Source: Pseudomonas akapageensis (GTDB taxonomy: Bacteria; Pseudomonadota; Gammaproteobacteria; Pseudomonadales; Pseudomonadaceae). Taken from it: a stretch of 64,000 bases of DNA. The DNA lies in NCBI RefSeq assembly GCF_011355085.1, contig NZ_VXCP01000010.1:235047-299046 (forward strand). Reading direction: 5' to 3'. The position numbers were made by a program, and so were the translations under genes. The notes beneath the pieces were generated by a model. That model was not told where the DNA came from. It saw nothing but the letters and a program-made list of their open reading frames with translations, and did no database searches. This document shows, piece after piece, positions 8,435 through 53,915 of the stretch; position 1 is the stretch's first letter; each line of letters opens with the position of its first letter.

Positions 8435-9382
8435 TCAGAGACCGTAGCTCATCAAACGCTCATAACGGCGCGCCAGCAGCGCTTCGTTGTCGAACTTCTT
8501 GAGCATGGCCAGCTGCGAAGACAGCTCCTGGCGAATCGCGGCAGCAGCAGCGGCCGGGTCGCGGTGGGCGCCGCCCAGTGGCTCGTTGATGACCTTGTCG
8601 ACGATACCCAGGTTCTTCAGGCGCTCGGCCGTGATACCCATGGCTTCGGCGGCATCGGCTGCCCGCTCGGAAGTCTTCCACAGAATCGACGCGCAGCCTT
8701 CCGGAGAAATAACGGCGTAGGTGGAGTACTGCAGCATGTTCAGCTGGTCGCACACACCGATCGCCAGCGCACCGCCGGAACCGCCTTCACCGATAACGGT
8801 AGCGATGATCGGGGTTTTCAGGCGGGCCATGACGCGCAGGTTCCAGGCAATCGCCTCGCTCTGGTTGCGCTCTTCGGCATCGATGCCCGGGTAGGCGCCC
8901 GGGGTGTCGATGAAGGTCAGGATCGGCATCTTGAAACGCTCGGCCATTTCCATCAGACGGCAGGCCTTGCGGTAGCCCTCAGGACGCGGCATGCCGAAGT
9001 TGCGGCGGACTTTCTCGCGCACCTCACGACCCTTCTGGTGACCGATCACCATCACCGGCTGGTCTTCCAGACGGGCAACGCCGCCGACAATGGCCGCATC
9101 GTCGGAAAAGTGCCGATCACCGTGCAGCTCATCGAACTCGGTGAAGATGTGGTTGATGTAGTCCAGGGTATAGGGACGACGCGGATGGCGCGCCAGGCGC
9201 GCAATCTGCCAACTGGTCAGGTTGCCGAAAATACTCTCGGTCAGCGTGCTGCTCTTGTCTTGCAGACGAGCGATCTCATCGCCGATGTTCAGCGAGTTAT
9301 CGTTGCCGACCAGGCGCAGCTCTTCGATCTTGGCTTGCAGGTCAGCAATCGGCTGTTCGAAATCAAGAAAATTCGGGTTCAT
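8435..9382 (-). CDS. accA: Acetyl-CoA carboxylase carboxyltransferase subunit alpha
   Basis: With AccD it transfers CO2 from carboxybiotin to acetyl-CoA, forming malonyl-CoA for fatty acid synthesis. The start at [20 protein letters not shown] gives 315 residues, the expected length; the open frame extends 21 codons upstream but that segment is not AccA-like. Conserved parts include [60 protein letters not shown] and [14 protein letters not shown]. It lies immediately downstream of dnaE in the same direction, as in other Gammaproteobacteria. Confidence 0.97.
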
Positions 9383-39154: not shown

Positions 39155-41746
39155 ATGTCATCGCGTAAATTTGGTATCAACCTGGTGATAGTCGTGGCCA
39201 TCGCCGCGCTGTTCACAGGGTTCTGGGCGCTGATCAACCGCCCTGTCTCGGCCCCCGACTGGCCGGAGCAAATCTCCGGTTTTTCCTACTCGCCCTTCCG
39301 CCTCGGGCAAGCCCCGCAGAAGGCTCAGTACCCGTCTGACGACGAAATGCGTCAAGACATGGAACAGATGAGCAAGCTGACCGACAGCATCCGTACCTAT
39401 TCGGTCGACGGTGCCCTGGGCGATATCCCGCGTCTGGCCGAAGAGTTCGGCCTGCGCGTGACCCTGGGCGTATGGCTCAGCCCAGACCAGGAACGCAATG
39501 AGCGTGAAATCGCTCGCGCCATCGAGCTGGCCAACACCAGCCGCAGCGTGGTCCGGGTGACGGTGGGCAACGAAGCCCTGTTCCGCGAGGAAGTGACGCC
39601 GGAGCAATTGATGGGCTACCTGGACCGTGTCCGTGCCGCTGTCAAAGTGCCGGTGACGACCTCCGAGCAATGGCACATCTGGAAAGAACACCCGGAACTG
39701 GCCAAGCACGTGGACCTGATTGCCGCGCACATCCTGCCATATTGGGAATTCATCCCGATGAAGGATGCCGGTCAGTTCGTCCTCGACCGGGCCCGCGACC
39801 TCAAGCACCTGTTCCCGAAAAAGCCACTGCTGCTGTCTGAAGTCGGCTGGCCGAGCAATGGCCGCATGCGCGGCGGCGCCGATGCCACCCAGGCCGATCA
39901 GGCGATCTACCTGCGCTCGCTGGTCAACAAGCTCAACCGCCAGGGTTACAACTACTTCGTGATCGAGGCCTTCGATCAGCCGTGGAAAGTCAGCGACGAA
40001 GGATCGGTCGGCGCCTACTGGGGCGTGTTCAACGCCGCGCGGCAACAGAAATTCAACTTCGAAGGCCCGGTGGTCGCCATTCCCCAGTGGCGCGTGCTCG
40101 CCGTCGGTTCGGTGGTACTGGCCATGCTGTCCCTGGCCCTGCTGCTGATCGACGGTTCGGCCCTGCGCCAGCGCGGGCGGACTTTCCTGACCTTCATCGC
40201 CTTCCTCTGCGGTTCGGTACTGGTGTGGATCGGCTACGACTACAGCCAGCAATACAGCACCTGGTTCAGCCTGACCGTGGGCTTTTTGCTCGCCCTCGGT
40301 GCGCTCGGGGTGTTCATCGTCTTGCTGACCGAAGCCCATGAACTGGCCGAAGCGGTGTGGATCCACAAGCGCCGCCGCGAGTTTCTGCCGGTGCAGGCCG
40401 ACAGCGCCTACCGACCGAAAGTCTCGGTGCACGTGCCTTGCTACAACGAGCCGCCGGAGATGGTCAAACAGACCCTCAATGCCTTGGCCAACCTCGATTA
40501 CCCGGACTTCGAAGTCCTGATTATCGACAACAACACCAAGGACCCGGCCGTCTGGGAGCCGATCAAGGCCCACTGCGAAATGCTCGGCGAGCGCTTCAAG
40601 TTCTTCCACGTATCCCCCCTGGCCGGTTTCAAGGGCGGCGCGCTGAACTACCTGATCCCGCACACCGCACCAGATGCCGAAGTGATCGCCGTGATCGACT
40701 CGGACTACTGCGTGGACCGCAACTGGCTCAAGCACATGGTCCCGCATTTTGCCGACCCGAAAATCGCCGTGGTGCAGTCGCCTCAGGATTACCGCGACCA
40801 GAACGAAAGCACCTTCAAGAAGCTCTGCTACTCGGAATACAAGGGCTTCTTCCATATCGGCATGGTCACCCGCAACGACCGTGACGCGATCATCCAGCAC
40901 GGCACCATGACCATGACCCGGCGCTCGGTGCTCGAAGAACTGGGCTGGGCCGACTGGTGCATCTGCGAGGACGCCGAGCTGGGTCTGCGCGTGTTCGAAA
41001 AGGGTTATTCGGCTGCCTATGCCCACAACAGCTACGGCAAGGGCCTGATGCCCGACACCTTCATCGACTTCAAGAAACAGCGCTTCCGCTGGGCCTATGG
41101 CGCGATCCAGATCATCAAGCGCCACGCCGCCAGCCTCTTGCGCGGCAAGGACACAGAGCTGACCCGTGGCCAGCGCTACCACTTCCTCGCCGGCTGGCTG
41201 CCGTGGGTGGCCGATGGCATGAATATCTTCTTCACCGTCGGTGCCCTGCTGTGGTCGGCGGCGATGATCATCGTGCCGCAACGGGTCGACCCGCCGCTGC
41301 TGATCTTCGCGATTCCGCCACTGGCGCTGTTCGTGTTCAAGGTGGGCAAGATCATCTTCCTGTACCGCCGCGCCGTGGGGGTCAACCTCAAGGACGCCTT
41401 CGCTGCCGCGCTGGCGGGCCTGGCGTTGTCGCACACCATCGCCAAGGCGGTGCTGTATGGCTTCTTCACCACCAGCATCCCGTTCTTCCGCACGCCGAAG
41501 AACGCCGACAGCCATGGTTTGCTGGTGGCCCTGTCGGAAGCGCGTGAAGAGCTGTTCATCATGCTGCTGTTGTGGGGTGCTGCTGCTGGCATCTGTCTGG
41601 TCCAGGGCATGCCGAGCGCGGACATGCGCTTCTGGGTGGCCATGTTGCTGGTGCAGTCGCTGCCGTACCTGGCGGCGCTGATCATGGCGATGTTGTCGTC
41701 GTTGCCCAAGCCTGAGGATGCTTCGGCGCCGGTGACGGCTCGGTAG
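39155..41746 (+). CDS. NdvB-like membrane beta-glucan synthase (GH17-like domain fused to GT2 glycosyltransferase)
   Basis: Predicted inner-membrane enzyme making periplasmic or cyclic beta-glucans. The 863 residues comprise an N-terminal membrane anchor (GINLVIVVAIAALFTGFWAL) and a periplasmic GH17-like domain (about 40-300, with VGNEALFREEVTPEQLMGYL and LLSEVGWPSNGR). Two or more membrane helices follow (about 310-390). A GT2 domain (about 420-650) has the DSDYCVD and CEDAELGLRVF motifs and the processive QRFRW (QxxRW) signature. Three to four C-terminal membrane helices end the protein. The architecture and length resemble Bradyrhizobium and P. aeruginosa NdvB, the latter linked to biofilm tolerance. 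The glucan linkage is not readable here. Confidence 0.85.
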   Translation: MSSRKFGINLVIVVAIAALFTGFWALINRPVSAPDWPEQISGFSYSPFRLGQAPQKAQYPSDDEMRQDMEQMSKLTDSIRTYSVDGALGDIPRLAEEFGLRVTLGVWLSPDQERNEREIARAIELANTSRSVVRVTVGNEALFREEVTPEQLMGYLDRVRAAVKVPVTTSEQWHIWKEHPELAKHVDLIAAHILPYWEFIPMKDAGQFVLDRARDLKHLFPKKPLLLSEVGWPSNGRMRGGADATQADQAIYLRSLVNKLNRQGYNYFVIEAFDQPWKVSDEGSVGAYWGVFNAARQQKFNFEGPVVAIPQWRVLAVGSVVLAMLSLALLLIDGSALRQRGRTFLTFIAFLCGSVLVWIGYDYSQQYSTWFSLTVGFLLALGALGVFIVLLTEAHELAEAVWIHKRRREFLPVQADSAYRPKVSVHVPCYNEPPEMVKQTLNALANLDYPDFEVLIIDNNTKDPAVWEPIKAHCEMLGERFKFFHVSPLAGFKGGALNYLIPHTAPDAEVIAVIDSDYCVDRNWLKHMVPHFADPKIAVVQSPQDYRDQNESTFKKLCYSEYKGFFHIGMVTRNDRDAIIQHGTMTMTRRSVLEELGWADWCICEDAELGLRVFEKGYSAAYAHNSYGKGLMPDTFIDFKKQRFRWAYGAIQIIKRHAASLLRGKDTELTRGQRYHFLAGWLPWVADGMNIFFTVGALLWSAAMIIVPQRVDPPLLIFAIPPLALFVFKVGKIIFLYRRAVGVNLKDAFAAALAGLALSHTIAKAVLYGFFTTSIPFFRTPKNADSHGLLVALSEAREELFIMLLLWGAAAGICLVQGMPSADMRFWVAMLLVQSLPYLAALIMAMLSSLPKPEDASAPVTAR

Positions 41747-41756
41747 AGTCGGTAGG

Positions 41757-41806
41757 TTCGCGAGGGGCCGCTTTGCGGCCCAATCGCTGGCAAGCCAGCG
41801 ATAGCG
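41757..41806. repeat. REP-like palindromes after the glucan synthase gene
   Basis: Two consecutive hairpins: GGGCCGC/GCGGCCC with a TTT loop, then ATCGCTGGC/GCCAGCGAT with an AA loop. The second shares its core with the palindromic repeat near 8311-8325. It lies 11 nt after the gene's stop, so it may also help terminate or stabilise the transcript. Confidence 0.65.
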
Positions 41807-41879
41807 GTCTATCTGTAGGCAAATTCTTTATTTCTTGCGCGACATTTCCCAAGCATAATCAACCCGCCTTGAACGCTGT

Positions 41880-42136
41880 TGCGCCTGTGTTTTCAGGTGG
41901 CTAGTCTGAACCGGTCGTTGCCAATTCAACGACCGGGTTTCGCAGCCCTGAGATGTAGTTCAGCGTTCATTTCCGAGTGTCGGCGTATCTACCTGCCCGA
42001 TCTTGCGTTATGGCAGCTGTGCGCGGGGCACCTTCGGGTGCGCCGGGTTCCTACATCTCCGGTCTGCGAACCCGCGTACAGCTGCCACCCATTCGTTTCG
42101 CAGCGAATAGAAGGCGGCTCCACGATGTAGGAGAAA
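41880..42136 (+). promoter_or_regulatory. Strongly structured 5' leader of the DUF6124 gene (candidate cis-regulatory RNA)
   Basis: The gene-free 393-bp stretch before the DUF6124 gene contains nested complementary segments. They are: a perfect 10-bp hairpin CCGGTCGTTG/CAACGACCGG (41911-41920 with 41927-41936, 6-nt loop); and a three-way junction. The junction is closed by a 13-bp stem, 42012-42024 with 42074-42086 (one G-U pair). It encloses a UUCG-capped hairpin (42026-42044) and a GGGTTC/GAACCC hairpin (42045-42050 with 42068-42073). A small ATTCG/CGAAT hairpin lies at 42091-42108. Finally CTCC (42118-42121) can pair with the GGAG ribosome-binding site (42130-42133). A CATAAT -10-like hexamer lies near 41854. 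Hand-folded, so function is inferred. Confidence 0.55.
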
Positions 42137-42139
42137 GCC

Positions 42140-42436
42140 ATGATAAAAATCGTCCCCGATCCACCCGCTTCAACCCCCTCACACTTCACCACCGAAAAAC
42201 CCTTCGGCACCGTCGACAGCAACGGCCAACCCATGTTCACCGTGCGTGGCGGCATCCCGGCCGAAGACGCGCTGGCCCACGCCACCACATTGATCGAATA
42301 CGCCGAAGCTACAGCCTGGGATGTGGTCGATCACCTGCACCTGAATGACAAAGCACTGGTGCTCGGGCTGATTCAACAGCTCGATGCGGCGCAGGCGTTG
42401 ATCGGCGCGGTGCTGGACCCGCCCGGCCAGCGCTAA
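42140..42436 (+). CDS. DUF6124 (formerly DUF3077) family small protein
   Basis: A 98-residue soluble protein of unknown function from a family I recognise as common and often multicopy in fluorescent pseudomonads. The N-terminal 30 residues are Pro/Thr-rich and probably disordered (PDPPASTPSHFTTEKPFGTV). The rest is predicted helical: FTVRGGIPAEDALAHATTLI, then EYAEATAWDVVDHLH and LVLGLIQQLDAAQALIGAVL. A GGAG site is 6 nt before the ATG, and the leader can hide it in a hairpin. No neighbour explains its role; it is isolated between the glucan synthase gene and a repeat element. Confidence 0.75.
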   Translation: MIKIVPDPPASTPSHFTTEKPFGTVDSNGQPMFTVRGGIPAEDALAHATTLIEYAEATAWDVVDHLHLNDKALVLGLIQQLDAAQALIGAVLDPPGQR

Positions 42437-42446
42437 CTCTCGTAAT

Positions 42447-42559
42447 CTCGTTCCCACGCTCCGCGTGGGAATGCCTCACCGACGCTCCGCGTCGCGTTCT
42501 CAGGCACATCGGCGCTGGAGCGCCTGGACCTGCGTTCCCACGCGGAGCGTGGGAACGAG
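42447..42559. repeat. Inverted-repeat interspersed element, copy 3
   Basis: A 113-bp member of the CTCGTTCCCACGC family, between the convergent ends of the DUF6124 gene and the DUF6508-like gene. Arms are CTCGTTCCCACGCTCCGCG.. and ..CGCGGAGCGTGGGAACGAG. Its right end is 13 nt from the GATTTGGGTATTTTT direct repeat that bounds the ADP-ribosyltransferase cassette. Confidence 0.85.
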
Positions 42560-42571
42560 ATTGAATCGAAC

Positions 42572-42586
42572 GATTTGGGTATTTTT
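42572..42586. repeat. 15-bp direct repeat, left boundary of the ADP-ribosyltransferase cassette
   Basis: GATTTGGGTATTTTT here is identical to 44293-44307 in the same orientation. After it the two sites keep partial similarity (GGTTGAGCC here, ATTGAAGCC there). The pair brackets exactly the two cassette genes, which suggests an insertion or recombination footprint, or a duplicated half-terminator. Confidence 0.6.
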
Positions 42587-42598
42587 GGTTGAGCCATT

Positions 42599-42973
42599 TC
42601 AAGGCGATGTATTCAATACTCGAAGACGATCGAGCGCCCGCTCAAGATAGCCATCGCGAATAATTTTGTTCAGATGCCCCTGGCAAAACCGGTCCGCTCG
42701 CACATGGGCGATCAACAGTTTGCGCACCTGCTCGGCGTCTGCAGTGTCGAGCAATGACACGTCGTCCATTTGCTTGCGTTTCTTGCCCGAAAACTCTTTC
42801 ATCCAGTCAAATGGCGCGAAGAAGTGTGTGGCGTAGAACACCCTCAGGAAGAGGTAAAGCGACTTCTGCCATTGAAGGCTCTCTTCGCCAAGTTTATTCA
42901 ACATGGCTGACGAAGGAGCGTACTGCAGAACATAGCCAAGGGCTTTGGGGGAAGGGGGTGGTAATTTTTTCAC
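42599..42973 (-). CDS. Small DUF6508-like protein, possible partner of the ADP-ribosyltransferase
   Basis: A 124-residue, probably all-helical cytosolic protein with no signal peptide. The likely start is GTG (KKLPPPSPKALGYV follows), with AGGA about 10 nt upstream. The central HFFAPFDWMKEFSG and the C-terminal LLIAHVRADRFCQGHLNKII, then RDGYLERALDRLRVL, resemble my recollection of the DUF6508 family, whose function is unknown. It starts 11 nt after the ADP-ribosyltransferase stop, so the two are almost surely co-transcribed. That makes it a candidate immunity/antitoxin or accessory factor, but position alone supports this. The base composition is poorer in GC than the housekeeping genes. Confidence 0.6.
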   Translation of the reverse strand: MKKLPPPSPKALGYVLQYAPSSAMLNKLGEESLQWQKSLYLFLRVFYATHFFAPFDWMKEFSGKKRKQMDDVSLLDTADAEQVRKLLIAHVRADRFCQGHLNKIIRDGYLERALDRLRVLNTSP

Positions 42974-42984
42974 GAGGCTGGTCC

Positions 42985-44178
42985 TCAGAGTTGTGGCGAG
43001 AGAATATTGGACGACTCAGGGAATGTTTGATCGGACAGACAGACTGTCATTGATCCCTGCACATCGGTAACATCGTGAAGATCAAACAACCGATGTTCCA
43101 TACCGATTCCAAAGAGGACCTCTTCCTCACTCGGCACCCCAATACTCGAAATATCTTTACCGACTCTGCTCCTCAACACTAGCTTATAACCCGACAAAAA
43201 CCATTGAAAATCAACCCTTTTAGAGGTACTGGTAAAGGCAAGCTCGTGGACAATCCTCCCATCTTGATAAGCATCCTCCGAACCTGTAAAAGGTCCAAAA
43301 AAACGAACAACGGGCGCTTCCTCGGTATAGTTTTTCAGTTGTGCAAGGCCGGTATTGATCGCCTCAATGAAAGCGTGAACCTGCGCATACTCAGGATCAA
43401 ATACTTTGTGGCGACGCAATATGCCGTTCACGATCCATGAATCAGGGCCCGTATAATCCCGAATCGCTCTAAATTGCCTTTCCGTCAACCCCAACTCTTG
43501 CGCAGTACGACCGCAATCAATAGCCTCAACACCCGCAGAGCAATCGTGACCGATGGTTTTAACAAGCGCTTCAAACTCCTCATCTATCGCTATACCGGGA
43601 TTTAGATATTGACCTTTCAACCGCGTAAATTCACCAACCGCTATAGCCTCAGCCCTACCCTCTACGACGAGTTTGGTCGTACTCCATGGTGTTCTGGCTC
43701 CGAGGCTGGCGGCCGCAAAAAAATTCATTCTCAGCAGGATCGGCACCCAGTCTGCAGTTTCCTTAATGTGGACAGCCACGGTTTTCGGTGAATCTTCACC
43801 ACTGAACAATCGCATCGCCTGATACGCCTGCCAGGTCAGCGCTGCCACGAATTCGCGATCATTCACGGGTTCGAACACTACCAATCTACGAAAACCGACA
43901 TTTTGAGCGTCAGGCACAGGCTCCGATATCCAGCACGGCAGCAACGGACGAAAATCCCTCGCCGGTTGGAGCGCAAGCTCAGCAACGGAAATACCGCGCT
44001 CTTTCAGTTGCTCAAGAAGCTCGACTGGATGACTGTAATAATTATTCGGCTCGCACATAATAAACAAAAAATCCACTGGATCATTTGAAATGACGTCGAG
44101 TACATCACCTGCAAACAACTGAATTTTTCGTTGATCTAGCCCAATATGGTCGACGTCTACTTGATCTTTCAGACTCAT
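42985..44178 (-). CDS. Predicted R-S-E-type ADP-ribosyltransferase with a possible macro-like N-terminal domain
   Basis: A 397-residue soluble protein. The start is ATG 44178 (MSLKDQVDVDHIGLDQRK); a GTG at 44223 would add 15 residues. The C-terminal half has the order expected of ADP-ribosyltransferase exoenzymes: a helical lead-in (LTERQFRAIRDYTGPDSWIV), Arg292 in APVVRFFGPF, the Ser-Thr-Ser motif at 317-319 (ELAFTSTSKRV), and an E-x-E motif at 351-353 (VPSEEEVLFGIGM). The N-terminal half (about 12-190) starts KIQLFAGDVLDVISNDPVDF and then CEPNNYYSHPVELLEQLKE; it reads like a macro-type fold, with low confidence. No secretion signal is seen. Codon use is AT-richer than the surroundings, suggesting transfer. 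Target and role (toxin, phage defence, regulation) are unknown. Confidence 0.65.
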   Translation of the reverse strand: MSLKDQVDVDHIGLDQRKIQLFAGDVLDVISNDPVDFLFIMCEPNNYYSHPVELLEQLKERGISVAELALQPARDFRPLLPCWISEPVPDAQNVGFRRLVVFEPVNDREFVAALTWQAYQAMRLFSGEDSPKTVAVHIKETADWVPILLRMNFFAAASLGARTPWSTTKLVVEGRAEAIAVGEFTRLKGQYLNPGIAIDEEFEALVKTIGHDCSAGVEAIDCGRTAQELGLTERQFRAIRDYTGPDSWIVNGILRRHKVFDPEYAQVHAFIEAINTGLAQLKNYTEEAPVVRFFGPFTGSEDAYQDGRIVHELAFTSTSKRVDFQWFLSGYKLVLRSRVGKDISSIGVPSEEEVLFGIGMEHRLFDLHDVTDVQGSMTVCLSDQTFPESSNILSPQL

Positions 44179-44274
44179 CGTCGTAACGCCCCAATAGTGA
44201 TTTGTCAATGTGAAAATACTCACAACCGCCTTGAAAAATAACTATCAAAACTGCCAGCTAGACACAGGGCAAAA

Positions 44275-44306
44275 AAAATACCCAAATAGAAAGATTTGGG
44301 TATTTT
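44275..44306. terminator. Bidirectional terminator between the fimbrial cluster and the ADP-ribosyltransferase cassette
   Basis: A perfect 13-bp stem (AAAATACCCAAAT/ATTTGGGTATTTT) with a 6-nt loop, preceded by a run of A and followed by T residues. It can therefore terminate in both directions. It ends the fimbrial transcript 27 nt after the last DUF1120 gene. Its right arm (44293-44307) is the second copy of the 15-bp direct repeat at 42572-42586. Confidence 0.8.
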
Positions 44307-44333
44307 TATTGAAGCCCTGTGAACGAAAGCCCG

Positions 44334-44984
44334 TTATAGATAAACCACTTCCAGCGTCCCCTCCCCGTCAAACTGAATGTCGTCGCTGGTATCCAGATCC
44401 TGCATGGGCGCCACCACCACTTCAACCATCAAGGTCGCGGTCAGATCGCGAATCGCGACCGGGCCCGCGCTGCTGCCCAGGGTGTCGGAGAAGCCCAGCA
44501 ATGAATTCGCACCGATACGATCGACCTTGAGGTCCGCCGCGTCCCAGGCATTGCCGTTGGTGGTGGAGTCGGTGTTGTAGATCTGCGCGATCTCATCGCC
44601 CTGGGTGCGCATCGGATCGAACTGCACTTCGTACAGGCCGATCTTGTTGCCGCTCTTGTCGAGCCCCAGGCCATAGTAGATGCCGCTGTTGACCAGGGCC
44701 GTACCGTCACGGTTGTCCTTCATGCGCAGGGCATAGCGGGTGGGGGCTTCGCAGGTGAGTGTGAGGCCTATGGGTTTTGGCTTGAGCCGGGTGCGGTTGG
44801 TCTTGCTGAGGTCTTGTACGGAAATCCTGCCAAAATCCACCACCCCGCCACCCGAGAGCGCCGGGGTGCAGGATGCCGGGGTGATGGTGCCCTGCACGAT
44901 CAGCTCGGTGGTGGATTGGGCATTCACCAGGGGGGCGAACAACAGGGCGAGCAGCCCTGCCTTGAATCCAGCGTGGTATTTCAT
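44334..44984 (-). CDS. DUF1120 fimbrial subunit-like protein (last gene of the chaperone-usher cluster)
   Basis: A 216-residue secreted protein starting MKYHAGFKAGLLALLFAPLV with a signal peptide ending about NAQ. The mature N-terminus is STTELIVQGTITPASCTPAL, then GGGVVDFGRIS. Cysteines in the SCTP and LTCEAPTRY segments probably form the subunit disulfide. The C-terminus ends GTLEVVYL. DUF1120 proteins are pilin-like subunits of chaperone-usher systems such as E. coli Yhc. It lies 39 nt after the two-domain tip-like protein. A further 12 in-frame codons upstream are unlikely to be used. Confidence 0.82.
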   Translation of the reverse strand: MKYHAGFKAGLLALLFAPLVNAQSTTELIVQGTITPASCTPALSGGGVVDFGRISVQDLSKTNRTRLKPKPIGLTLTCEAPTRYALRMKDNRDGTALVNSGIYYGLGLDKSGNKIGLYEVQFDPMRTQGDEIAQIYNTDSTTNGNAWDAADLKVDRIGANSLLGFSDTLGSSAGPVAIRDLTATLMVEVVVAPMQDLDTSDDIQFDGEGTLEVVYL

Positions 44985-45023
44985 CTGTGATACCTCCTTC
45001 CCTTTTTTATTGATGTCCATGCT

Positions 45024-46193
45024 TTACAGATAAACGATCTCGATGGTCGCAGCGCCATCGATAGCGGCCTCTTCAGTCAATGTCAGCGTGTTGGCCGGAG
45101 CCAGATAAAGATCCACGCCCAGGGTGCCGCTCAGTTGAGTCATGGCCGTGGGACCGGTTGCCATGTCGGCGTGCGTGCCAAACCCCAGCAATCGACCATC
45201 GGGGTACAGGAACGCGGCAGCGGCCGGCGCCAGCCACCCCTGCCCGCCGGGCTGGCCATGCATGGCGCTCAGTGCATGACCATCGCCGGTGGCGGTGTTG
45301 TCCACCCAGGTGACGTAGCCACCCAGCTCCTGACCGAAGCGGGTCTTGCCGACGCCGAAGACCGCACTGGCGTCCACTTCGCTCAAGGTTGCCCGCACGG
45401 CATTGGGCCGGTTGTCCCGGGCCGAGAAGGCAAAGCGGGTGGGTGCGTCGCACTGGACGTTCAACGACAGGCTGCGTTGCAGTTTAGTGGCGCTGTCGCG
45501 GGTCAGCTGCTGCGCCTGAATACGGCCGAAGTCGACCACCCCGCCATTGCCCAGGCGCGGCGTGCAGGCAGCCGGGGCGAAGCCCACCTGCAACCCGAGT
45601 TCGCGCCGGGCACCGGACACTTCCAACAGCCCGCTGTTGTTCCAGGTCACGGAATCGCCACGACCCAGCGCGGCCTCATCGCCCCAGGCGCGGACCTCCA
45701 GACTCGCAGTGAAGGATCGTCCCTGGACAATACTGCCCGCCTTGACCGGCGTCAGCCCTTTATCCGGCAGCCACGCAATGGCCGCGTCTGCCTGGCCTGG
45801 AGGCTGCCCGGCCGCCGCCACTGGCGCCAGATCGACGCGTTCGCCATCGAGCAGCGCGTCACTCAGGCGCAGGGCATAGCTGCCCTGCTCGCCAAAGCGA
45901 AAGCGTTCGGCACTGGCCGGCAGGGCGCGGTAGAACAGGGTCATGGTGTCCGCTTGTGCGCAATGCACGTTCAGCCGAAGGCTGCGCACGCCCAATGGCA
46001 GCTCGCCGCCCTGGGCCTTGAGCGTTGTGCGGTTGAACAGACCGTAATCGATCAACGGCTGGCTGATCGAGACGTCGCAACCTTCTGCCATGGCCTGGGC
46101 CGTGGGGGTGAACATCGACACGGCCAGTGCCAGGCCCGCAGTGAAAGCAACACGGTGCACGGATAATAAATAGGTCACTGGGGTTACTCTCAT
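45024..46193 (-). CDS. Two-domain DUF1120 protein, putative fimbrial tip adhesin
   Basis: At 389 residues it is nearly twice the length of its DUF1120 paralogues. A signal peptide (VAFTAGLALAVSMFTPTAQA) is followed by an N-terminal domain with its own cysteine pair (GCDVSISQPLIDYGLFNRTT and LRLNVHCAQAD). A C-terminal DUF1120-like pilin domain comes next (CTPRLGNGGVVDFGRIQAQQ, LNVQCDAPTRFAF) and ends in TIEIVYL. Two-domain subunits encoded just after an usher are typically tip adhesins: receptor-binding domain first, pilin domain second. The ATG at 46193 overlaps the usher stop by 4 nt (ATGA). Confidence 0.78.
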   Translation of the reverse strand: MRVTPVTYLLSVHRVAFTAGLALAVSMFTPTAQAMAEGCDVSISQPLIDYGLFNRTTLKAQGGELPLGVRSLRLNVHCAQADTMTLFYRALPASAERFRFGEQGSYALRLSDALLDGERVDLAPVAAAGQPPGQADAAIAWLPDKGLTPVKAGSIVQGRSFTASLEVRAWGDEAALGRGDSVTWNNSGLLEVSGARRELGLQVGFAPAACTPRLGNGGVVDFGRIQAQQLTRDSATKLQRSLSLNVQCDAPTRFAFSARDNRPNAVRATLSEVDASAVFGVGKTRFGQELGGYVTWVDNTATGDGHALSAMHGQPGGQGWLAPAAAAFLYPDGRLLGFGTHADMATGPTAMTQLSGTLGVDLYLAPANTLTLTEEAAIDGAATIEIVYL

Positions 46194-48610
46194 GGCGTCC
46201 GGCACACGGCCGACGTGGTTTCGTAATAGGCCTGCAGGTCGGGCTCGTCCGGCAAGGCGAACTGCAATTCACAGGCCGGCTGATCCGGCGCTTTGACCCA
46301 CAACCGAGGGCTGACTTCAACATTGGGGGCAAACACCAGCCCGCCCTCCTGAACCAGGGTGACGAACTCGCCCTCGCCGTCGGTAACCATCGCCCCGGCA
46401 GGCAATGCCTTGCCGTCGGCGGTGGTCGCCTGCAGCAGCGCCCGACGCGTGCTGACCACGCCGAAGTCGACCCGCGCCACCGCACCGCGACCGGCCTGCA
46501 GCACCGTTGCGCCATTGTTGATATCGATGTTGCGCGGCAAGGTTTTGGTCTGTACTTCCACCGGGCTGTTGCCGTAAGGCGACAATTGCGCGACCACGGC
46601 CTGGCCCGTGCCGTCCGTCCAGACCGGCCCGGCAGGGGTCGACACCTTCACCCCGGACACATCGCCCACCGACACCACGCCGAAGGTGTCCTGAACCGCA
46701 TACGGCGACAAGGTGACGCCACCGTCGTGCACGGCCAGGCCACCGCGCAGGCCGGCGCTGTAGCCACGGTTGCCGTTGCCATAGCCGGTATAGCCCATTT
46801 CCAGCTGGGCATAGCGCGGCAGCAGCGAGACACCGGCGTTCAAGTCCACTTCACCATCGCGGCTGTCGCGCTCGGCGCCCAGGCGGTAGCTGGCGGTATC
46901 GCTGAGCTGCTCCTGCAGCGAAACACCGACCCGGTTCTCCCCGCCGCTGTTGCGCACCGAAGTGCGCAGGCGGCGGCGCTCGCCCAGGGGCAGGCTCACG
47001 CTCAGGTACACCGCGTTGTCGATACCATCGTCGCCGCCCAGGTTCCACTCGGCACTGGCCGACACCGACACCTGGCCGAATCGCTGCCCCCACGAGGCGT
47101 AGGAACGACTGGTGGAACGACCGTCGAACAACGTCGAACGCGCATAGCCAGCACTCAAGCTGCCCAGCCAGGGCTGCGCCCACGATACGCCTGCGCTGTA
47201 CTGGTTGTGATAACGGCCGCCCTGGCTCGACTGGTCGAAGTCCAGCTGGGTGTCGATCAGATCCCGGTAACCACTGGTTTGCTGGGCGGCAGCGGCATTG
47301 ATCGACCAGTCCTCGCCCAGCCGTTGGGACAGCGAGAGCTGGGTTTGCACGCCTCGAACCCCCTCGCGGGACGCTTGCGAGGATTGCACCAGCCACTGCG
47401 CCTGCGAATCTGTCCAGGGTTGCACACCAATACCCAGGCCGCCGGCATAGTAGTCCTCGGCGGCCATCAAACCGGTACTGAGGGTGGAGGTGCCGCTGAT
47501 GGCCTGAGTCCAGCCGCCGCTGACCACCCAGGGCTCGCGGGCGACACCGCCGGTATCGCGCACCTGGCCGGCACCGAGCACAAACCCCGGCGCGGGCAAA
47601 TCCAACGCCACCATCGCCGCCGGCACGGTGAAGCTGCGCTGCTCGCCATCGGCTTCGATCACGGTGACTTCCAGATCGGTACGACGGTCCAGGCGTGGCA
47701 GATTGCCCAAGGCGAAAGGCCCGGCCGGTACCACGGTCGAATAGATCAAGGCCCCGGCCTGACGCACTTCCACCCGCGCCTGGCTGTGGGCGATGCCTTC
47801 GATTGCCCCACGGCGGGTGGGCACCATCAAGGCTTCTTCGGACGTCAATTGCAGGCCGGTAATGCGCGCACCGGCCAGCACCGGGTTGCCCAGGCCGATC
47901 TGCCCGGCCTGCAACACGGTGCCCAGTTGGGCAAAGGTGCGCTGGGCGTAGGCGTCCAGGTGTTCGGTGCGGGAATTGCCGTCGACCGAGGTGTGCAATT
48001 GATGGCTGCGCACGATCCAGTCGCCGGCGTTGAAGCCTACTTCGGTATTGGCCGACCAGTATTCGCTGTTCTGGCCATCGAATTCATTGCGCAAACCCAG
48101 CAACTCGTAATTGAGGATGCCGGCCGTGCCACCGGTATGGTAGGCAGACAAATCCTGTTCATGTTCTGGCGCCTTCAGGGCCTGGGTCGGCACGACCAGG
48201 GCCACTTCATCGTTTGCAGGGTCCGAGTTCACCTGGGTTTGCTCATAGGCGCCGACAAAATCCCGGCAGGTCGCGGCATCGCTATCGGTGCTTTTCCCCG
48301 GCATTTGCAGCCCGGCGGCATCGAGCAGGGTCTGGTCGAAGCATAACTGGCCGTCGGCCTGGAAGCGCGCGTTCACACGACCGCGCGGCTGATCGTTGAC
48401 TCGCAGCGTTACCGCGTGCACACCGGGGGTGAATCGTGCGGCGTCGCTCAAGTACTCGATCAGACTGGGGTCGATGCCGCGCTGGCGCAGGATGTCGGCA
48501 TCGAAGGTCAAGGGTGCGGCGAAGACCTCGCTGGCCTGGGTGCAACTCCATAGCAACAGGCCCTTGGCCAATAGTGTCCGCCCCGGGTGCTCGGTAAAAA
48601 TGGATCGCAT
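46190..48610 (-). CDS. Outer-membrane fimbrial usher (FimD/PapC family)
   Basis: The assembly platform that receives chaperone-subunit complexes and secretes the fibre. The start MRSIFTEHPGRTLLAKGLLL lies 1 nt after the chaperone stop, giving 806 residues; 16 codons further upstream are open but inside the chaperone gene. A signal peptide ends about EVFA. An N-terminal periplasmic domain (with CFDQTLLDAAGLQMPG) precedes a 24-strand barrel with a plug. Characteristic parts are LRNEFDGQNSEYWSANTEVG, PFALGNLPRL and the C-terminal domains (GKALPAGAMVTDGEGEFVTL). It is shorter than type 1 ushers but complete. Confidence 0.88.
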   Translation of the reverse strand: MRSIFTEHPGRTLLAKGLLLWSCTQASEVFAAPLTFDADILRQRGIDPSLIEYLSDAARFTPGVHAVTLRVNDQPRGRVNARFQADGQLCFDQTLLDAAGLQMPGKSTDSDAATCRDFVGAYEQTQVNSDPANDEVALVVPTQALKAPEHEQDLSAYHTGGTAGILNYELLGLRNEFDGQNSEYWSANTEVGFNAGDWIVRSHQLHTSVDGNSRTEHLDAYAQRTFAQLGTVLQAGQIGLGNPVLAGARITGLQLTSEEALMVPTRRGAIEGIAHSQARVEVRQAGALIYSTVVPAGPFALGNLPRLDRRTDLEVTVIEADGEQRSFTVPAAMVALDLPAPGFVLGAGQVRDTGGVAREPWVVSGGWTQAISGTSTLSTGLMAAEDYYAGGLGIGVQPWTDSQAQWLVQSSQASREGVRGVQTQLSLSQRLGEDWSINAAAAQQTSGYRDLIDTQLDFDQSSQGGRYHNQYSAGVSWAQPWLGSLSAGYARSTLFDGRSTSRSYASWGQRFGQVSVSASAEWNLGGDDGIDNAVYLSVSLPLGERRRLRTSVRNSGGENRVGVSLQEQLSDTASYRLGAERDSRDGEVDLNAGVSLLPRYAQLEMGYTGYGNGNRGYSAGLRGGLAVHDGGVTLSPYAVQDTFGVVSVGDVSGVKVSTPAGPVWTDGTGQAVVAQLSPYGNSPVEVQTKTLPRNIDINNGATVLQAGRGAVARVDFGVVSTRRALLQATTADGKALPAGAMVTDGEGEFVTLVQEGGLVFAPNVEVSPRLWVKAPDQPACELQFALPDEPDLQAYYETTSAVCRTP

Positions 48611-48611
48611 A

Positions 48612-49352
48612 TCAGGCGCCGCCAGCACGCAGGGGTGCCTCAAACGCATCCACGGCAAAGCCGTATACGGTGGCCGGGAACAACTTCACCGTGGTCGGCG
48701 CGCCGCTCACCGGGCCGTCGACCTCCACGGTGATGTTGTCACCCGGCAATACATAACTGCGGGGCAAGCGGGCGGCCTGGTTGCCAGGCAGCAATTTCAG
48801 CTCTTGCGCCAGGCGCACCACGTAGGATGTTTCGTTACGCACGGTGAGCTTGCCGTCGGCCAGGGACCACTGCAGGCCGGTCCAGGGCTCACGGTTGGGT
48901 GCCAGGTCCTTGGGGTGCAGGATCACCGGCAGGTTCTGCCGCACGCTGACGCCAACCCGTGCCTGACCCGCTTCTGCAGCCTTGGCGGTTTGCGGAATAC
49001 CTTCGAAAATCACCCGCTTGAGGCGCTGGGTCTGCAACGGCTTTTCGCTGCGCAGAATGAAGCGCACCAATTGCTCTTTTCCGGCCTCTACCCGCCACAC
49101 TGGCTGGGTGAGGAACAGCAAGGGTTCCGGGTCTTCCGGTATGTCCTGCAACGTCACATGCAGCAATGCAGTGCTGGTGTCGCTGTTGCGCACCTTGATC
49201 GATGCCTCGCCGTCGGCTTCCTTGACAATCACCACCGAGGTCTCGGGGATCATGCCGTCAGCCCAGGCGGGCAAGGCCGGAAACAGGCCCAGCAGGCCGG
49301 CGAGAATGGGCAGACAGCGCAGTGCAGGCCTGCGCACGTGCGTAAGATTCAT
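48612..49352 (-). CDS. Periplasmic fimbrial chaperone
   Basis: A PapD-like two-Ig-domain chaperone that caps fimbrial subunits before the usher. The 246 residues have a signal peptide (ALRCLPILAGLLGLFPALPA). Conserved features are IKVRNSDTSTALLHVTL in domain 1, then the strand with VWRVEAGKEQLVRFILRSEK that contains the subunit-docking Arg region, and LTVRNETSYVVRLAQELKLL in domain 2. Its stop is 1 nt before the usher ATG. A hairpin and 135 nt separate it from the upstream DUF1120 gene. Confidence 0.88.
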   Translation of the reverse strand: MNLTHVRRPALRCLPILAGLLGLFPALPAWADGMIPETSVVIVKEADGEASIKVRNSDTSTALLHVTLQDIPEDPEPLLFLTQPVWRVEAGKEQLVRFILRSEKPLQTQRLKRVIFEGIPQTAKAAEAGQARVGVSVRQNLPVILHPKDLAPNREPWTGLQWSLADGKLTVRNETSYVVRLAQELKLLPGNQAARLPRSYVLPGDNITVEVDGPVSGAPTTVKLFPATVYGFAVDAFEAPLRAGGA

Positions 49353-49452
49353 GGCAATACTCCGGGCACGACGCTACGCACCCGTAAAAGAGTGGGATGG
49401 CGTCGAGAGCTTTTGATAAAAGAAAAAAACGCAGGTGAAGCTGTTATAGAAA

Positions 49453-49477
49453 GGCCGGCATACTGGATATGCCGGCC
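49453..49477 (-). other. Intergenic hairpin between DUF1120 subunit 4 and the chaperone gene
   Basis: A perfect 10-bp stem (GGCCGGCATA/TATGCCGGCC) with a 5-nt loop, 11 nt after the DUF1120 stop on the minus strand and followed by TTTCTAT. It could partly terminate or protect the subunit mRNA, giving more subunit than usher transcript, as in other fimbrial operons. Confidence 0.6.
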
Positions 49478-49487
49478 GGCACTCTAT

Positions 49488-50141
49488 TTATAGGTATTTG
49501 ACTTCAATCACGGATGCACCGTCGATTTGCACGTCGTCGGTCAGAGTCAGCTCTTTCGCAGGGGCAATGCGCACATCCAGATGTATGTTTGCGCTCAGAT
49601 TCGTGATGGCCGATGGCCCATCGATAACGGAGCCGGTGGTTAAACCAATAATTCTATTGCCGACTTGGTAATTGAACACCTCTTGTACCAGAGTCGACCC
49701 ACCTGATTGCCAAGTGAGACCATCATCGGAAGAAACTATAAAAACTCTGTCCGCGACTCCATCGACGATATTTTCACTCAACACTAAATTATATCGGCCA
49801 ATTTTTTCTGCTCCATTCATTCCAAGACCAAAGTCAAATTCAGGATCAGCGCTATCGGTAGCAGTCCCCAATTTTTCATCCGTAGTTTTTAGTGCAAAGC
49901 GCACTGGTCCTTCACAAGCCACGCTGAATGATGACCTTTTCCTGCGTATCGTTTCTTCATCCTGCTTGAGATCCGCCGCGGAGATGTTACCCAAATCGAA
50001 ATTTCCACCACCGGCAATCGTTGGTGTACACGCCGCCGGAGTAATAGTCCCAGTAACGCTAATATCGGTAGTGGACGCTGCGAAGGCGGCCGGTGCTGCA
50101 ACAACCAGCGCAGTCAAAGCTAAAAGAGGCGTAAATTTCAT
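49488..50141 (-). CDS. DUF1120 fimbrial subunit-like protein 4 (AT-rich)
   Basis: A 217-residue secreted pilin-like protein. The signal peptide is MKFTPLLALTALVVAAPAAF, and the mature start is ASTTDISVTGTITPAACTPT. Then come GGGNFDLGNISAADL and FSVACEGPVRFAL, and the C-terminus ASVIEVKYL. It clearly shares its frame with the three paralogues upstream. The interior (about 49680-49900) is visibly AT-richer, with rarer codons than its siblings, suggesting a recombined or imported allele. It is separated from paralogue 3 by 291 nt containing an imperfect duplication. Confidence 0.83.
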   Translation of the reverse strand: MKFTPLLALTALVVAAPAAFAASTTDISVTGTITPAACTPTIAGGGNFDLGNISAADLKQDEETIRRKRSSFSVACEGPVRFALKTTDEKLGTATDSADPEFDFGLGMNGAEKIGRYNLVLSENIVDGVADRVFIVSSDDGLTWQSGGSTLVQEVFNYQVGNRIIGLTTGSVIDGPSAITNLSANIHLDVRIAPAKELTLTDDVQIDGASVIEVKYL

Positions 50142-50177
50142 AAAAAACTCTCATTACAAGGTAAATGCTTCAAAAAC

Positions 50178-50353
50178 CGCTTCGATTGCGGAATTGAAAC
50201 TTTATGTTTTAACGTAAGTTTTATCTGTCAGACGCTTCCACCGACAAAAGTAGGCTGCTTCTTAGGAACACATAAGACCTGTCCAGCGAATACAGCAACC
50301 TTCAACGGCGGAATCAAAACTCTAGGCTTTGCCTTAAGATTTCTCTGCCGGAC
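50178..50353. repeat. Imperfect 120-bp-period tandem duplication between DUF1120 genes
   Basis: The 56-nt segments 50178-50233 and 50298-50353 match at 39 of 56 positions without gaps (shared GCGGAAT, AAACT, TAAG, TCTG). Similarity resumes later in each period (CTTAGGA.., ..AATAC), so the unit is about 120 bp and present about twice. A 60-codon open frame on the minus strand (50228-50410) covers one unit, but there is no ribosome site and the second unit has a stop. It is therefore treated as a decayed duplication or non-coding repeat. Confidence 0.5.
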
Positions 50354-50432
50354 ACTGTCATTCACGCCTGTCGGAACGCACTTAGGACACTGCGGATTTG
50401 TCTTGTGCAAATACCGATTTCAATCCGATGTC

Positions 50433-51095
50433 TTATAGGTAAACCACTTCAATCACTGCCGAACCATCCAGTGCGACTTCATCGGTCAGGCTCAACTCCT
50501 GAGCCGGCGCCACATGCGCGGAGATGCGCAGAGCGCTCGCCAGATGGGTGACCGGATCCGGCCCTGCGCTGTGCCCTGCGTTGAAACTGAACCCCACCAG
50601 CTCCAGCGGCGAGATGGGATGAACGGCATCGGCCGTGTTGCTCCAGGTCAAGCCCTGGTCCTGGGTGTAGGTGGCATAGGCTGTCGCACCATCGATCTGC
50701 GCGTTGGCCGGCTCAATATCCAGCAGGTAATGCCCAAGCTTTTCTTCGCCCGACATGCCCAGGCCATGAGCCCGGTAAGCGGCCCTTGCGCCAGCGCCGG
50801 AAGGCCATGTTGCCGAGCCCTCCCGGTTGTCCACCGAGCGCAGGGCAAAACGCGTCGGCCCGTCACACACCACCGTCAGCGCCAGGGCTTTCTCTGGCAG
50901 CGGGGTATGCGCATCCTCCTCCAGATCATGGGACGCGATACGGCCAAAGTCGACGACACCGCCACCAACGAACGTAGGCCGGCATGCGGCCGGCGTGATG
51001 GTGCCGGTGACGGAAATATCCGTGGTGGACTGTGCAAATGCAGTCGGCATCGCCGAAATCACGGCAGCCGCTATGAGCGTGGGGGCGAACTTCAT
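50433..51095 (-). CDS. DUF1120 fimbrial subunit-like protein 3
   Basis: A 220-residue secreted protein starting MKFAPTLIAAAVISAMPTAF with signal cleavage after about AQ, then STTDISVTGTITPAACRPTF and GGGVVDFGRIASHDL. LTVVCDGPTRFALRSVDNRE is the family core, and the C-terminus is SAVIEVVYL. The upstream in-frame ATG at 51119 is dismissed because paralogues all begin at MK[FS]. It follows paralogue 2 after 27 nt, so the two are surely co-transcribed. Alternating hydrophobic residues near the mature N-terminus fit a donor strand for subunit polymerisation. Confidence 0.85.
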   Translation of the reverse strand: MKFAPTLIAAAVISAMPTAFAQSTTDISVTGTITPAACRPTFVGGGVVDFGRIASHDLEEDAHTPLPEKALALTVVCDGPTRFALRSVDNREGSATWPSGAGARAAYRAHGLGMSGEEKLGHYLLDIEPANAQIDGATAYATYTQDQGLTWSNTADAVHPISPLELVGFSFNAGHSAGPDPVTHLASALRISAHVAPAQELSLTDEVALDGSAVIEVVYL

Positions 51096-51122
51096 GGTCA
51101 GATTCCTTTTTTTTTGCACGAC

Positions 51123-51770
51123 TTAGAGATAGATAACCTCAAGCGTGGCCGCGCCATCGATGGTGACTTCATTGGTCAGCGTGAGACTCTTGGCCGGAGC
51201 GATAGCCATGCTGACGGCCAGCTGGGTAGTCAGCGTCTCGATCGCACTGGGTTCATTGGCGCCGACGACCGCTACAGCCGTGAGGTTCGGACCGTTGGTA
51301 TTGAAGAGGTAGTGTTCGTCAGAGGGCGCTTTAAGCCAGGAAACCCCGTCATCACGGGACTCCAGGACATCCACCGAAGCGCTGCCATCGGCGGCATAGC
51401 CGCTCGTGAGCAACCTGTACTCGCCAATTCTTTCAACGCCATTGAGACCCAGGCCAAAATTGTCATAGGTCACCGTCGGCTGGGAGCCGGCACGACCGTC
51501 CACGGCCCGCAGGGCAAAACGGGTGGGCGCTTTACACGCCACACTCAACTGCCGGGCTGGCGACAGGAACCCTGTTGCTGCTTCCTGATCAAGGTCCTGC
51601 ACCGAGATCTTGCCGAAATTGAACTCACCGCCGCCGCTGAGCACCGGTGTGCACGATGCCGGCGTGATAGTGCCGGTCACCGAGAGATCGGTAGTGGATT
51701 GTGCAAAGGCGCCGCTGACCACCGACAGTGAAGCGACAAAAGTGAATGCGCATGCTGACTTCATTGTCAT
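51123..51770 (-). CDS. DUF1120 fimbrial subunit-like protein 2
   Basis: A 215-residue secreted protein (MTMKSACAFTFVASLSVVSG signal region, mature start about STTDLSVTGTITPASCTPVL). The family core GGGEFNFGKISVQDL, LSVACKAPTRFALRAVDG and the C-terminus ATLEVIYL are present. AGGAG lies 4 nt before the ATG at 51770 and 10 nt before the second ATG at 51764; either could be used. It is 90 nt downstream of paralogue 1, and that gap holds a hairpin. Confidence 0.85.
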   Translation of the reverse strand: MTMKSACAFTFVASLSVVSGAFAQSTTDLSVTGTITPASCTPVLSGGGEFNFGKISVQDLDQEAATGFLSPARQLSVACKAPTRFALRAVDGRAGSQPTVTYDNFGLGLNGVERIGEYRLLTSGYAADGSASVDVLESRDDGVSWLKAPSDEHYLFNTNGPNLTAVAVVGANEPSAIETLTTQLAVSMAIAPAKSLTLTNEVTIDGAATLEVIYL

Positions 51771-51802
51771 GACTCTCCTCCAGCAACATGGCGTATCGCA
51801 GC

Positions 51803-51824
51803 GGGCTGCCCGCTGGGGCAGCCC
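51803..51824. other. Intergenic hairpin between DUF1120 paralogues 1 and 2
   Basis: A perfect 8-bp GC stem (GGGCTGCC/GGCAGCCC) with a 6-nt loop, 36 nt after the paralogue 1 stop. There is no U-tract in the direction of transcription. It probably stabilises the 3' end of a processed paralogue 1 mRNA or is a weak attenuator. Confidence 0.5.
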
Positions 51825-51860
51825 TTTGGAAATTGCAGGCAATCGGGTTGAGTGTCGTGC

Positions 51861-52502
51861 TTACAAGTAGACGACTTCCAGCGTGGAAGCACCGTCGATA
51901 GGGACTTCATCGGTCAGCGTCAGGTCCTTGGCCGCGTTGATGTACATGACTACCTGAAGGTTTGCCGCAAGAACCCCAATCGCACTGGGTTCACTCCCAG
52001 CGTCCACGGAAACGCCAATCAGTCTGGGCTGAATCGTGTTGGGGATGTAGGCTGCATCGCTGCCATAGTCAACCCAGGTGTTGCCACCGTTGAATGACTC
52101 TACGAGCTTCGTCGAGGCATTGCCGTCGGCGATGTAGTCGGTGGTGCGCAGGGCGTACATGCCGATCTTTTCCGTACCGTTCAATCCCAGGCCGAAACTT
52201 TCTTCGTGCGGTTCTGTATCGGTTCCGGCGCGCCCATCCACAGCATGAAGCGCAAAGCGCGTGGGCGCATCGCACACCACACTCAATGGCCGGAGCGACG
52301 ACATGAAGCCCGTCGGGACGTCCTGCCTCAGGTCCTGCGCAGCGATTGTGCCGAAATTGAAGTTGCCACCACCGCCGATCGAAGGTGTACAAGCCGCCGG
52401 CGTGATGGTGCCGGTAACCGTGATGTCGGTGGTGGACTGGGCAAAGGCGACCGGCGCGACAGCGATCAGGGCGCTCAGGGCAAACAGCGGTGAAAATTTC
52501 AT
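51861..52502 (-). CDS. DUF1120 fimbrial subunit-like protein 1 (first gene of the cluster)
   Basis: A 213-residue secreted protein: signal peptide MKFSPLFALSALIAVAPVAF, mature start STTDITVTGTITPAACTPSI, GGGNFNFGTIAAQDL, LSVVCDAPTRFALHAVDGRA, and C-terminus STLEVVYL. It is the promoter-proximal gene of the minus-strand cluster and divergent from dapE, so it is the likely major subunit. The 21 extra in-frame codons upstream do not resemble a signal peptide. An AGGAAT sequence about 9 nt before the ATG is the likely ribosome site. Confidence 0.85.
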   Translation of the reverse strand: MKFSPLFALSALIAVAPVAFAQSTTDITVTGTITPAACTPSIGGGGNFNFGTIAAQDLRQDVPTGFMSSLRPLSVVCDAPTRFALHAVDGRAGTDTEPHEESFGLGLNGTEKIGMYALRTTDYIADGNASTKLVESFNGGNTWVDYGSDAAYIPNTIQPRLIGVSVDAGSEPSAIGVLAANLQVVMYINAAKDLTLTDEVPIDGASTLEVVYL

Positions 52503-52763
52503 TGCGATACATTCCTGTACGGGTTGGTTGCTCTCAAAACAGCTGCCTTCCAAGGCATGGCGCAATGGTAGAAAGTGGCTCTTCTCCCCTCGCCGGGCCT
52601 TTTCCCAAGGAATCTCGGAATTTTCCTAAGACACACACGGATTTCTCTGAAGAGACAAGAAAGCGCCCTGCATCCCGCATATCCGATTCGGCATGCATCA
52701 CACCCCCCGTTTTGCTTTAAACTGTCGCCCTTTGCCCGCCCTGCCTTGCTCCGGAGTCTTTCC

Positions 52764-53915
52764 ATGACGGCCCCAGCCGACCTCTCGCCTACCCTTCAAC
52801 TGGCCTGCGACCTGATCCGTCGCCCCTCGGTGACGCCGATCGATGCCGATTGCCAGAAAATGATGATGCAGCGCCTGGGCGATGCCGGCTTCACCCTCGA
52901 ACCCATGCGCATCGAGGACGTCGACAACTTCTGGGCCACCCATGGCAGCCAGGAAGGCCCCGTGCTGTGCTTCGCCGGGCATACCGACGTGGTCCCGACC
53001 GGCCCGGAGCAGGCCTGGCAGAACGCCCCGTTCGATGCCCTGATCGACGAACACGGCATGCTCTGTGGCCGAGGCGCGGCCGACATGAAAGGCAGCCTGG
53101 CGGCCATGGTGGTGGCGACCGAACGTTTCGTCGCCGACTACCCGAATCACCGGGGCAAGATCGCCTACCTGATCACCAGCGACGAGGAAGGCCCGGCCCA
53201 CCATGGCACCAAGGCCGTGGTCGAACGCCTGGCCGCGCGCAAGGAGCGCCTGGACTGGTGCATCGTCGGCGAGCCGTCGAGCACCTCGCTGGTGGGTGAC
53301 GTGGTCAAGAACGGCCGTCGCGGCTCCCTCGGCGCCAAATTGACCGTGCGTGGTGTGCAAGGCCACGTGGCCTATCCGCACCTGGCGAAGAACCCGATCC
53401 ACCTGGCCGCGCCGGCCTTGGCCGAACTCGCTGCCGAGCACTGGGACGACGGCAATGCCTTCTTCCCGCCGACCAGCTTCCAGATCTCCAATGTGAACAG
53501 CGGCACCGGCGCCACCAACGTGATTCCCGGCAAGCTGGTGGCGGTGTTCAACTTCCGCTTCTCTACCGAATCCACCGTCGAAGGCCTGCAGCAGCGGGTC
53601 GCGACCATCCTCGACAAGCATGGCCTGGACTGGCATGTGGACTGGGCGCTGTCGGGCCTGCCGTTCCTGACCGAGCCGGGCGACCTGCTCGACGCCGTGT
53701 CGGCCAGCATCAAGCAGGTCACCAGTCGCGAAACCAAGGCTTCCACCAGCGGCGGCACCTCCGACGGGCGCTTCATCGCGACCCTGGGGACCCAGGTGGT
53801 CGAGCTGGGCCCGGTCAACGCCACCATCCACCAGGTCAACGAGCGTGTGCTGGCCAGCGATCTGGACGTGCTGACCGAAATCTACTACCAGACCCTCGTG
53901 AAGTTGCTCGCCTGA
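52764..53915 (+). CDS. dapE: Succinyl-diaminopimelate desuccinylase
   Basis: A zinc-dependent hydrolase releasing LL-diaminopimelate from its N-succinyl form, the step after DapC. The start at [20 protein letters not shown] gives 383 residues; the frame is open 63 codons further upstream without similarity. Metal and catalytic segments are [46 protein letters not shown] (catalytic and metal Glu), and [12 protein letters not shown]. Its last base overlaps the rlmA start (TGATG). Confidence 0.97.

Follow-up and report, generated by a model that had tools for sequence, protein, structure and literature searches.

A predicted macro-fold–ADP-ribosyltransferase fusion and its DUF6508 neighbor in Pseudomonas akapageensis: a candidate toxin–antitoxin or defense-like pair

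Several described systems pair an ADP-ribosyltransferase (ART) with a protein that counters it. In Tre1–Tri1, an ART effector of the type VI secretion system (T6SS) with its immunity protein (6drh/6dre), the immunity protein is an ARH-type hydrolase, and in DarT–DarG the toxin gene comes first. Bxa–Bsi combines an arginine ART toxin with a small inhibitor that blocks it by binding (PMC11699363). Here we analyze a 64,000-nucleotide stretch of Pseudomonas akapageensis DNA (the window; contig NZ_VXCP01000010.1), in which a gene encoding a predicted ART behind a macro-fold N-terminal half is followed by a gene of the DUF6508 family (Table 1). An earlier, sequence-only reading of the transferase gene overlooked the macrodomain-fold half, the DUF6508 partner and two paralogous pairs. 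We give about an even chance to the pair being a toxin–antitoxin or defense-like module in which a predicted arginine-type ART is held inactive by DUF6508, and it is likely that DUF6508 keeps the fusion transferase in check.

Table 1. Features of the transferase–DUF6508 locus, in window coordinates
Feature	Position	Strand	Basis
Macro-fold/ADP-ribosyltransferase fusion protein, 397 aa	42985..44178	-	ATG at 44178, stop codon 42985-42987
N-terminal half (residues 1-195), with a predicted macrodomain fold that lacks the canonical loop motifs	43594..44178	-	Alignment, structure model
C-terminal half (residues 190-386), with the predicted fold of an ADP-ribosyltransferase and R292, S317-T-S, E351-x-E353	43021..43611	-	Alignment, profile, structure model
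DUF6508 partner gene (PF20118), 124 aa, GTG start	42599..42973	-	11 nt after transferase stop codon; Pfam match
Accessory block (bounds approximate): DUF6124/DUF3077 gene, DUF6508, transferase, chaperone-usher operon	41713..52707		Missing in congeners

The transferase frame lies on the minus strand, the plus strand of the same interval being interrupted by stops, and translation could alternatively start further upstream, at the in-frame GTG at 44223. In the numbering of the 397-residue product, R292, S317-T318-S319 and E351-E352-E353 sit exactly where the sequence-only reading had located them. A search of 5.8 billion proteins, with scoring limited to the 7998 candidates that had the most words in common, gave a family of 13 members including the window protein. 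R292, T316, S317, E351 and E353 are identical in all 13 aligned members, position 318 is threonine in 12 and serine in one, and position 319 is serine or threonine; because these residues are kept across the family, the catalytic motif is not a chance occurrence. Two sequences from metagenome bins of other phyla (L004 and L005, from a set of five loci) match the ART half only and were not counted as members.

Profile and structure comparisons agree on the fold of the C-terminal half. The window protein scores 17 bits against Pfam PF03496, under the cut-off of 23.4; PF03496 matches every family member at E values up to 1, the lowest being 1.1e-9, and 10 of the 13 also match PF01129. The family profile finds the Tre1 chains with E values of 1.3e-12 and 2.3e-12, aligning R, STS and E-x-E, and after them XopAI, the Listeria ART Lmo0066, Vis and VIP2. 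Tre1 is the best match of the ART domain both by Foldseek and by sequence profile, and viral fold library matches are mostly ART proteins. The proposal that this is an R-S-E ART is supported by an ART fold in the predicted structure and by the alignment of R, S317 and E-x-E with Tre1, with R, S-T-S and E-x-E in the order of the arginine-type class. The E-x-E motif of ARTs points to arginine as the modified residue, and by its sequence the C-terminal half is predicted to be an NAD+-dependent transferase, probably modifying arginine. We consider it very improbable that the protein is a decayed or inactive transferase retained as a scaffold: the window protein alone falls under the Pfam cut-off and the L001 frame departs from the family C-terminus, but the catalytic residues are unchanged throughout the family, and the 12 homologues are 34–52% identical to the window protein.

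The model of the fusion protein is confident and contains two recognizable folds, the second being a macro fold in the N-terminal half. No match to PF01661 (Macrodomain) was found in this half, and hhalign against 32 canonical macrodomains returned nothing (E 0.49), as did the ART-half control (E 0.13); because this profile comparison found nothing, the macro assignment comes from the predicted structure only. The comparison set was taken from 32 of 34 loci fetched, was picked by likeness to one macrodomain and leaves out divergent macrodomain classes. Canonical macrodomains carry the loop motifs NxxN, GGG and [ST]xGxxG, which are present in 31, 31 and 23 of these 32 sequences, respectively, versus none of the 13 family members. 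A G-D motif after strand 2 occurs in 25 of the 32 canonical macrodomains versus a single family member, the window protein. The N-terminal half instead carries a conserved D75-x-x-P78-x-x-P81-C82-W83-I84-S85. As modeled, it has a macro fold, but we do not class it as a member of the Macrodomain family PF01661. An N-terminal aminoglycoside acetyltransferase match (E 0.12–0.17) was dismissed as chance, the structure model giving it no support.

The DUF6508 partner scores 68.7 bits against PF20118, for which the curated cut-off is 23.6. In all seven full-length loci (the window, L013, L014, L015, L001, L002 and L003, the last from Pseudomonas sp. T1-3-2) the transferase gene comes first and DUF6508 follows on the same strand. 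With start codons chosen from the alignment, five of the seven gaps measure 10–12 nt; L015 has 62 nt before the aligned DUF6508 start, although an earlier start would overlap the transferase, and L001 has 142 nt. The L001 transferase frame (9977–11313) leaves the family C-terminus after about residue 362 and possibly belongs to a broken copy. Judged by eye, in two Pseudomonas strains (L001 and L002, ~9970–11700) the pair is flanked by a PepSY/TonB-type gene on one side and a dipeptide-transport operon on the other, a common position that suggests a shared insertion site. The DUF6508 model (pLDDT 90.8) is all-helical and gave no clear match in fold searches, and its sequence shows no match to any known ADP-ribosylhydrolase family (macro, ARH or NADAR). 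With a profile built from 14 DUF6508 sequences, 1513 proteins were retrieved, so the family numbers at least that many. In our literature search no paper named DUF6508, and none was found for DUF6861 or for Lmo0066 together with ADP-ribosyl and immunity.

The genome of P. akapageensis holds three transferase–DUF6508 pairs, on contigs C2 (the window), C9 and C1, the two paralogous loci being L013 and L014; the C9 and C1 transferases are 52% and 42% identical to that of the window. At least five full-length fusions occur in at least three of 398 genomes of the genus, a lower bound in that up to four candidates were scored per genome, and all five have DUF6508 directly downstream. The genus sample contains 18 DUF6508 genes in 16 of the 398 genomes. 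Eight of the 13 that do not accompany a fusion lie in long frames (296–370 codons) with an N-terminal extension (L030, L031, L033, L036, L037, L040, L042 and L043). Among the genomes of these 13 genes, only G400 has an ART match, on another contig; conversely, five genomes have an ART-domain match only, and one of them has a DUF6508 gene, also on another contig. Three of the five ART-only matches (L019, L022 and L023) carry an N-terminal DUF6861, one of these genes being located 9 kb from TssC; the other two (L020 and L021) were left out, as their frames were not picked by the motif filter. At the level of the phylum, the fusion was found in this genome only, of 299 (up to six candidates scored each), and DUF6508 in three of 349 genomes, this one included. 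Neither the transferase (E up to 1e-5) nor DUF6508 (E up to 1e-3) was matched in plasmid and phage collections, and IMG/VR gave no transferase relative and one distant DUF6508 match (L115).

In the mechanism that we propose, DUF6508, a small, predicted all-helical protein, would restrain the transferase by binding. Loss or titration of DUF6508, as might happen under phage infection or stress, would set the C-terminal domain free, which could then use NAD+ to ADP-ribosylate cellular targets, and growth would stop. The N-terminal macro fold, lacking the canonical loop motifs, would have a role in recognition or regulation and would not be an eraser.

Several observations weigh against this proposal. 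The toxin-first gene order is also compatible with effector–immunity pairs. The G-D motif kept by the window protein is used by canonical macrodomains, so that its macro fold may still bind a ligand. No ART was recognized by eye within ~1.5 kb of 13 of the 18 DUF6508 copies in the genus, and DUF6508, a broad family, is for this reason not a dedicated antitoxin family. Against PADLOC-DB 2.0.0 (2023 library), the window pair matched only SduA, and not significantly (E 0.046 over 35 residues), and five related proteins matched nothing at E up to 0.01; no defense gene was recognized by eye in the flanks of the copies. In G000, DUF6508 conservation is 71–73%, versus 42–47% for the ART and 43–58% for the N-terminal half, an uncommon pattern if DUF6508 is a specific immunity protein. 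We rejected the relative evolution rate of DUF6508 and toxin as a discriminator, since the G000 contrast fails generally (20 of 36 pairs against the ART).

Greater conservation of DUF6508 than of the ART in G000 would suit a regulatory ADP-ribosylation switch, in which the ART targets a single host protein and DUF6508 acts as activator, substrate or co-working enzyme rather than as an antidote. The same holds for R92, R95, G99, H100 and G108 of DUF6508, which are invariant over 74 aligned sequences, including copies without an ART, and resemble residues with a ligand-binding or catalytic role. The sporadic distribution (three of the 398 genus genomes) and the placement in an accessory block speak against a core regulatory role, and we judge such a switch decidedly unlikely.

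The sequence-only reading had further held that the protein lacks a signal peptide and a secretion-type N-terminus and is not near any T6SS, and on these points we agree. No N-terminal hydrophobic stretch is apparent by eye, without use of a signal-peptide program, a Pfam scan of the fusion up to E 10 gives only PF03496 and no Rhs, PAAR or VgrG domain, and the one TssC match of this genome lies on contig C56, whereas the window is on C2. VgrG-type PF05954 matches were found on C1, C56, C78 and C89, with one under the cut-off on C66; there was none on C2, and PAAR and Hcp were not searched genome-wide. The protein could nonetheless be an orphan, unlinked antibacterial effector, such as a T6SS cargo, with the macro-fold domain serving delivery and DUF6508 as its immunity protein. 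A T6SS effector, Tre1, is the closest solved relative of the ART domain, the genes run in the order effector then immunity, three divergent copies coexist in one genome, and a VgrG-type gene lies ~20 kb from the C1 copy. TssC is present in five of five distinct genomes tested, but we discarded this argument as uninformative because 87 of 99 genus genomes have TssC regardless. The fusion lacks PAAR, Rhs, VgrG or any other Pfam-known delivery domain, neither TssC nor a VgrG-type gene was matched on the contigs that carry the C2 and C9 copies, and three of the five other ARTs of the genus carry DUF6861, one of them 9 kb from TssC; we regard an orphan effector as somewhat unlikely. The lack of a known delivery domain and the DUF6861 N-terminus on these three other genus ARTs favor action inside the producer, as does the finding that no T6SS or phage genes were recognized by eye beside the transferase copies. 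The earlier interpretation thus stands as regards the R-S-E ART fold, the accessory segment and the missing Pfam-known delivery domain, whereas action inside the producing cell, which it held probable, is a candidate reading, as the toxin-first order also fits effector and immunity.

The accessory location that had been proposed is supported by synteny. All six congeners fetched (L102–L107), selected from 12 in which the neighboring gene is nearly full-length, lack the block from ~41.7 to 52.7 kb between the same two genes. The congener alignment ends just past the glycosyltransferase gene at 39155–41746 and restarts 139–248 bases on, in their coordinates, in the peptidase M20 gene region (window open reading frame 52575–53915). 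In tblastn searches of the six 12-kb congener stretches, no transferase, DUF6508, fimbrial subunit or usher was found; L106 holds elsewhere a 107-nt piece resembling window 42004–42107. The chaperone-usher operon of this ~11-kb block has DUF1120 fimbrial-like subunits. A 39-nt direct repeat (77% identical) at 42564–42602 and 44285–44323 brackets the two-gene cassette, with a core similar to one half of a hairpin at 44270–44311. At L013, the cassette has on either side a palindromic REP-like repeat of 107 bp (92% identical; 8727–8833 and 10624–10730), a relative of which was found at window 42444–42562, downstream of the window cassette only. A promoter and terminator scan gave no more matches than shuffled sequences.

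The locus offers a testable function for DUF6508. Should the pair prove to be a toxin with its antidote, it would add an antidote that matches none of the macro, ARH or NADAR hydrolase families by sequence. The fusion is also a natural chain that links a Tre1-like transferase, usually a writer, to a macro fold, usually an eraser or reader, from which the eraser loop motifs are absent. A broader idea, which we hold to be unlikely, is a new ADP-ribosylation conflict module in which DUF6508 proteins would be new, hydrolase-unlike antidotes that bind ADP-ribose or the ART, and the macro fold stripped of eraser motifs would be a sensor releasing the transferase on infection. Were this antidote-family reading true, the 1513 DUF6508 proteins would mark many unrecognized NAD+-dependent systems. 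A literature search on macrodomain–ART combinations, in the available parts of the papers (including PMC11490716, PMC7159879, PMC7050489, PMC9503650 and PMC11833690), gave no description of this architecture; a 2015 review of ART natural history may mention it.

Set beside the known systems, the pair shares an ART fold and the R/STS/E-x-E motif with Tre1–Tri1. The PDB entry of Tre1 gives it the name "PAAR repeat-containing protein", whereas the fusion has a macro-fold N-terminus and a DUF6508 partner; with no PAAR-type N-terminus and a different partner, the pair is not to be filed as Tre1–Tri1. The DUF6861–ART proteins of Pseudomonas come from the same genus and have a related ART domain behind another N-terminal domain. 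DarT–DarG likewise brings an ART together with a macro fold in a single module. Here, in contrast, the macro fold resides in the transferase chain with its loop motifs missing, the predicted ART belongs to the R-S-E type, and the adjacent gene encodes DUF6508 instead of a separate macrodomain antitoxin. SirTM (Mfs1) also combines, in a single chain, an ADP-ribose transferase with a macrodomain (PMC11490716), but its transferase is of the sirtuin type and its macrodomain is zinc-dependent, in place of the ART fold and the macro fold without canonical motifs found here. Bxa, unlike the fusion, has a MuF N-terminus and is located on a prophage; inhibition by a bound neighbor protein, as in Bxa–Bsi (PMC11699363), is the mode that we propose for the DUF6508 pair.
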